The translations under genes were made by a program, and so were the position numbers. DNA of 64,000 bases, from contig NZ_LNTU01000012.1 in NCBI RefSeq assembly GCF_001558695.1, forward strand, positions 496,001 to 560,000, given 5' to 3'. The notes beneath the pieces were generated by a model. That model was not told where the DNA came from. It did no database searches and saw nothing but the letters and a program-made list of their open reading frames with translations. Source of the DNA: Paramesorhizobium deserti (GTDB lineage Bacteria > Pseudomonadota > Alphaproteobacteria > Rhizobiales > Rhizobiaceae). Shown one piece after another: positions 36,314-37,740 of this stretch (the stretch's first letter is position 1; each line of letters opens with the position of its first letter).

Positions 36314-36440
36314 TTACTCGACGATCTTCGACACGATGCCGGCGCCGACGGTGCGGCCGCCTTCACGGATGGCGAAGCGCAGCTTCTCTTCCATCGCGAT
36401 CGGCACGATCAGCGTCACGTCCATCGATATGTTGTCGCCG
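36314..36440 (-). pseudogene. Exact 127-bp duplicate of the tuf 3' end
   Basis: Identical to 36441-36567, directly abutting it as a tandem repeat. It encodes the last 41 codons of EF-Tu including the stop, without a start. Tandem period and length are both exactly 127 bp. It may be a recombination scar, but is more likely an unmerged assembly overlap (see findings). Confidence 0.9.
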
Positions 36441-37616
36441 TTACTCGACGATCTTCGACACGATGCCGGCGCCGACGGTGCGGCCGCCTTCACGGATGGC
36501 GAAGCGCAGCTTCTCTTCCATCGCGATCGGCACGATCAGCGTCACGTCCATCGATATGTTGTCGCCGGGCATCACCATCTCCGTGCCTTCCGGCAGCGTC
36601 ACAACACCCGTCACGTCCGTCGTGCGGAAGTAGAACTGCGGCCGGTAGTTGGTGAAGAACGGCGTGTGACGGCCACCCTCGTCCTTGGTCAGGATGTAGG
36701 CTTCAGCCACGAACTTGGTGTGCGGCTTCACCGAACCCGGCTTGCACAGCACCTGGCCGCGCTCCACGTCCTCACGGCCGACGCCGCGGATCAGCGCACC
36801 GATATTGTCGCCGGCCTGGCCCTGGTCGAGCAGCTTGCGGAACATCTCGACGCCGGTGACGGTCGTCTTGGTCGACGGCTTGATGCCGACGATCTCGACT
36901 TCCTCGCCGACCTTGACGATGCCGCGCTCGACGCGACCCGTCACAACCGTGCCGCGGCCCGAGATCGAGAACACGTCCTCGATCGGCATCAGGAACGGCT
37001 GGTCGACCGGACGCTCAGGCGTCGGGATATAGGCATCGACTTCCTTCATCAGCGCCCGCACCGCGTCCTCGCCGATCTCCTTGTTGGAGTCTTCGAGCGC
37101 AGCCAGCGCCGAGCCCTTGACGATCGGAATGTCGTCGCCGGGGAAGTCGTACTTCGACAGAAGCTCGCGCACTTCAAGCTCGACCAGCTCGAGGAGCTCC
37201 GGATCGTCGACCTGGTCGACCTTGTTCAGGAACACCACGATCGCCGGAACGCCGACCTGACGGGCGAGCAGAATGTGCTCGCGGGTCTGCGGCATCGGGC
37301 CGTCGGCGGCCGAAACCACCAGGATCGCGCCGTCCATCTGCGCGGCGCCGGTGATCATGTTCTTGACATAGTCGGCGTGGCCGGGGCAGTCGACGTGGGC
37401 GTAGTGACGGTTCTCCGTCTCATATTCGACATGCGCCGTCGAGATCGTGATGCCGCGCGCCTTTTCCTCAGGCGCCGCGTCGATCTGGTCATACGCCTTG
37501 AACTCGCCAAAGTACTTCGTGATCGCCGCCGTCAGCGACGTCTTGCCATGGTCAACGTGGCCGATCGTGCCGATGTTAACATGCGGCTTCGTACGTTCAA
37601 ACTTACTCTTCGCCAT
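36441..37616 (-). CDS. tuf: Elongation factor Tu
   Basis: 391-residue GTPase delivering aminoacyl-tRNA to the ribosome. G-domain motifs are [26 protein letters not shown] and NKVDQVDD; domains 2 and 3 are complete to KIVE. The start ATG at 37616 ([20 protein letters not shown]) has CGGAGAG upstream. The flanks are mixed: rpsJ downstream, as for tufA, but tRNA-Gly and tRNA-Tyr upstream, as for tufB. Copies of its 3' and 5' ends lie on either side. Confidence 0.97.
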
Positions 37617-37679
37617 CTGAGCTCTCCGTTATTTTCGCCTGCTCAGGCATTCTCTAATGACAAGCGCAACCTTCGGGGA

Positions 37680-37740
37680 GTGGCCGATCGTGCCGATGTT
37701 AACATGCGGCTTCGTACGTTCAAACTTACTCTTCGCCATC
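37680..37740 (-). pseudogene. Exact 61-bp duplicate of the tuf 5' end
   Basis: Identical to 37557-37617. It encodes the first 20 residues of EF-Tu (through NIGTIGH) from an ATG at 37739, then leaves the family and stops at 37629 after 36 codons. It lies between tRNA-Gly and the intact tuf. Confidence 0.9.

Follow-up and report, generated by a model that had tools for sequence, protein, structure and literature searches.

An apparent tRNA-Gly-tuf-rpsJ junction in a Paramesorhizobium deserti draft genome almost certainly reflects collapse of a tufA/tufB pair, with contig overlaps left unmerged

Introduction

In the 64,000-nucleotide stretch of Paramesorhizobium deserti DNA analysed here (the window, part of contig C12 of an assembly of 41 contigs), the gene for elongation factor Tu, tuf, is bounded by exact copies of its own ends and placed between rpsJ, the expected neighbour of tufA, and two tRNA genes expected beside tufB. 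This raises the question of whether the chromosome itself has such a junction, or whether it was generated during assembly. An earlier note on this DNA, made from the sequence alone, had described the gene as a tufA/tufB hybrid junction, had pointed to the absence of the essential gene block that separates the two tuf genes in Rhizobiales, and had favoured a collapsed repeat, with a contig overlap left unmerged, over a tuf-mediated rearrangement. In the current work, the locus was compared with the remainder of its own assembly, with five congeners (G001 to G005) and with a wider set of related loci.

Results

Both ends of tuf are duplicated exactly

The features of the locus, all on the minus strand, are as follows; C9 designates a second contig of the same assembly.

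35932-36240, minus strand: rpsJ (30S ribosomal protein S10), the true downstream neighbour of tufA (ORF, NCBIfam; alignment with G005 and G001)
36314-36440, minus strand: exact repeat of the final 127 bp of tuf, read as the unmerged start of the rpsJ-side contig (repeat; its matches in G005 and G001 fall inside the two tuf genes only)
36441-37616, minus strand: tuf (EF-Tu), the sole full copy in the assembly, read as representing both tufA and tufB (ORF, NCBIfam, assembly search)
37617-37679, minus strand: fusA-tufA spacer, equal to C9:16586-16648, whose place is beside fusA (the window contains a C9 suffix of at most 123 bp; the G005 spacer is alike)
37680-37740, minus strand: exact repeat of the initial 60 bp of tuf with one further base, read as the end of the contig on the tRNA (tufB) side, left unmerged (repeat)
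37869-37942, minus strand: tRNA-Gly (TCC), the true upstream neighbour of tufB (tRNA call; same in the congener stretches)
37969-38053, minus strand: tRNA-Tyr (GTA) (tRNA call; same in the congener stretches)

The neighbours named in the earlier note, rpsJ downstream of tuf and the two tRNA genes upstream, were thus found in place. Sequence comparison also bore out the tandem repeat that it had described at the 3' end of the gene, positions 36314-36440 and 36441-36567 being identical over 127 bp and arranged head to tail; the repeated unit comprises the last 127 bp of the 391-codon tuf ORF and ends exactly at its stop codon. At the other end, the same 61 bp occur at 37557-37617 and 37680-37740, with a start-to-start spacing of 123, as had been noted, except that only 60 of these bases are coding, the remaining one lying upstream of the start codon. 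Considering that the copies are exact at such length, and that among the four direct-repeat families of at least 45 bp listed for the window only these two reach 100% identity, they cannot be attributed to chance. The 63 bp separating the two tuf starts correspond to the spacer between fusA and tufA and not to the leader on the tRNA side, and the middle piece, which carries the spacer and the full gene, begins at the base directly following the fusA stop codon. Neither join in the window contains an N, in contrast to two related genomes considered below.

Elsewhere in the window, imperfect repeats (85-91%) at 2953-3159 and 7581-7766 share a motif like CCTCGGGCTTGACCCGAGGAT together with its reverse complement, and a weaker relative (66%) occurs at 42351-42397; these are perhaps copies of a dispersed palindromic repeat.

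The secE-fusA block is present on a separate contig ending inside tuf

A search of the whole assembly with window positions 36314-37760 as query returned four matches: besides the window, these were both ends of C9 and a weak hit on C37 (47 bp at 81%). C9 is a separate contig of 16,708 bp that opens with the last 61 bp of tuf, while its last 123 bp equal window positions 37557-37679, that is, the spacer after fusA followed by the first 60 bp of tuf. Between these ends it carries tRNA-Trp, secE, nusG, rplK, rplA, rplJ, rplL, rpoB, rpoC, rpsL, rpsG and fusA, so that the assembly-wide search for secE, nusG, rpoB, rpoC, rpsL and fusA proposed in the earlier note located all of them on this contig. 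The whole assembly has one match to rpoB, and one to EF-G above the family cut-off, both on C9. SecE is specified by ORF 567-785 of C9; positions 536-736 had also been considered for secE and were discarded, since no match was obtained in either NCBIfam (1e-20) or Pfam (0.01), and for ORF 277-675 no Pfam family was matched at 0.01.

Outside the two tuf ends of C9, no exact 25-mer is common to C9 and the window, and the block is therefore not located elsewhere in the window. The earlier claim that it is missing consequently holds for the window but not for the assembly: the secE-nusG-rplKAJL-rpoBC-rpsLG-fusA block is carried on C9, which rules out its loss by a real deletion, and relocation to another place is likewise rejected, given that both ends of C9 lie inside tuf.

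These data also bear on the possibility that the two tuf genes recombined with each other, so that the secE-fusA block was cut out or relocated, now residing elsewhere or on a circle, and a single hybrid tuf was left between tRNA-Gly and rpsJ. Two near-identical direct repeats could indeed recombine, and a contig with tuf sequence at both ends would also fit a circle; yet such an event would be expected to leave one seamless tuf rather than two partial duplications, and here both ends of the gene are duplicated. C9, moreover, is complete and terminates within tuf on either side, and beyond C12 the tuf region has no strong match in the assembly other than these ends, so that the block has no other flank that would place it in a new setting. 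A circle bearing the only rpoB found would need to be kept in every cell, and contigs also stop inside tuf in three of the five congeners. We therefore consider this recombination highly improbable, and the rearrangement that the earlier note had held out as its alternative receives no support. We give equally little credence to a variant in which recombination took place in part of the population only, a one-tuf chromosome and an rpoBC/fusA circle both being present in the culture and guiding the join.

Congeners have two tuf genes around the same block

The five congeners were searched along with the genome itself. Two of them, G001 and G005, contain two full tuf copies on one contig each, separated start to start by 18,565 bp and 17,818 bp, respectively; in the other three (G002, G003 and G004) the contigs stop within tuf. 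The gene order in G001 and G005 is tRNA-Tyr, tRNA-Gly, tufB, the genes of C9, tufA and rpsJ, which is the arrangement of tuf direct repeats around the secE-fusA block that the earlier note had described for Rhizobiales. Alignment to G005 showed that the tRNA side of the window matches as far as the first tuf copy, the start of which it includes, that C9, in three pieces, spans from the end of this copy to the start of the second, and that the match to the rpsJ side begins where the second copy ends. The same order was obtained with G001, where C9 also aligns in three pieces and approximately 0.8 kb of G001 is unaligned. In both congeners, the flanks of the window thus correspond to the outer sides of the two tuf copies and C9 to the inner side.

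The tufA and tufB genes differ at 2 of 1176 bases in G005 and at 17 of 1176 in G001, and in both genomes their identity ends no more than one base from the start and stop codons. This accounts for a collapsed piece that ends at the stop codon, where the 127-bp copy ends and the congener tuf copies start to differ, and for the common 61 bp, which begin one base before the start codon.

It could alternatively be supposed that the duplications are real, small copies of the tuf ends produced when the two tuf genes underwent gene conversion, in a chromosome that is otherwise normal or rearranged. In favour of this, the duplicates match exactly and stop at the boundaries of tuf itself, and concerted evolution of tuf genes is documented (PMC6053082). 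Against this, the duplicated stretches match G005 and G001 nowhere but inside the two tuf genes, a result that also led us to reject conserved small duplications; furthermore, what follows the 61-bp copy is the fusA spacer, identical to the end of another contig, and similar copies in the genomes G062 and G028 are separated by N. Gene conversion is accordingly a very remote prospect.

Contig ends and joins at tuf in related genomes

Among the congener contigs broken in tuf, G003 and G004 each have one pair of ends with exactly 127 bp in common, and in G002 both pairs share 95 bp, as would be expected of overlapping ends of an assembly graph. The remaining end pairs of G003 and G004 have 0 bp in common, their contigs stopping at different places in tuf, with the compared G003 stretch ending two bases before the end of its contig.

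A survey of the family (61 genomes including that of the strain itself, 55 of which matched) included two genomes with an extra tuf start close to a full tuf, and these were examined. G062 (locus L136, G062:C8, 5332-5508) has 77 bp of the tuf start followed by 100 N and then a full tuf, and G028 (locus L134, G028:C6, 5535-5730) has a 98-bp duplicate of the tuf start with a single N between the copies. With N at the join, neither was accepted as a real parallel of a duplicated tuf start. Both are read, from the sequence, as marked scaffold joins with unmerged overlaps, and their anatomy as that of the upstream join in the window with the gap letters kept. Separately, the contig end at locus L138 (G028:C9) begins, on the other strand, with CGCTCTTCCGATCT, which resembles leftover sequencing adapter.

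Loci were also collected through the neighbouring RlmB-like gene, and the best 80 of at least 592 candidate stretches were inspected. Among these 80, tuf is followed by the nusG block in 25, the stretch stops inside tuf in 29, and no tuf occurs within the stretch examined in 22; at one locus (L090) tuf lies near the end of the stretch and neither neighbour is seen. Three, L091 and L092 from two Chelativorans assemblies and L124 from one Ciceribacter assembly, have tuf followed by rpsJ. No duplication was detected within 2 kb of tuf at these three loci. Their secE-fusA block forms a separate contig, with fusA on contigs of 17,835, 17,570 and 19,738 bp, respectively. Because this contig both begins and ends within tuf in all three, we rejected them as real rearrangements and regard the false tRNA-tuf-rpsJ neighbourhood as a recurrent assembly fault.

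Discussion

The arrangement in the window is almost certainly an assembly artefact, arising from collapsed tufA and tufB genes and unmerged contig overlaps, and not a real feature. The hybrid junction is real as letters of the assembly, but not as chromosome, and the contig overlap proposed in the earlier note is supported by the ends of C9, which are tuf ends, and by the intact order in two congeners. From the congener order we infer that the chromosome of this strain reads tRNA-Tyr, tRNA-Gly, tufB, tRNA-Trp, secE-nusG-rplKAJL-rpoBC-rpsLG-fusA, tufA and rpsJ. Since tufA and tufB would be near-identical from start codon to stop codon, the assembler probably merged both into one, and the 16.7-kb block between them would have become C9, each end of which lies 60-61 bp within tuf. 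During scaffolding or gap closing, the single tuf and its attached fusA-side spacer may then have been inserted between the contigs of the tRNA side and the rpsJ side, the pieces presumably being joined end to end with their overlaps unmerged, which would have left the 61-bp and 127-bp duplications.

As in other cases of short-read repeat collapse, one copy is present where relatives have two (G001 and G005, with near-identical copies), the sequence between the copies forms an orphan contig ending in the repeat (61 and 60 bp of tuf on C9), and exact duplications mark the joins, the 61-bp copy coinciding with the overlap at the end of C9. The window differs from such cases in that overlaps of two lengths occur together and the joins lack N. 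These two points speak against a collapse, as do the start of the middle piece after the fusA stop codon and the three assemblies (L091, L092 and L124) that have the same neighbourhood without duplication. The earlier note had suggested a k-mer size of 127 as the source; this fits the 127-bp overlap on the rpsJ side, whereas the tRNA side and each end of C9 have overlaps of 61 bp, and a single k of 127 therefore cannot explain all four ends. Nor does one k-mer size account for the start of the middle piece. The two lengths may reflect separate steps of assembly or gap closing, and the position of that start may be due to chance.

The gene arrangement behind the artefact is ordinary. The genes, and the outer and inner neighbours of tuf, are the same as in the tufA/tufB pair around the secE-fusA block of G005 and G001, the assembly differing in having one full tuf instead of two and the block on another contig. 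The significance is therefore one of curation only: gene order taken from this assembly would suggest a single tuf and a lost rpoBC-fusA neighbourhood. Given that 3 of the 80 best loci show this false neighbourhood as well, claims of a single tuf or of altered gene order at this locus in draft genomes need checking.
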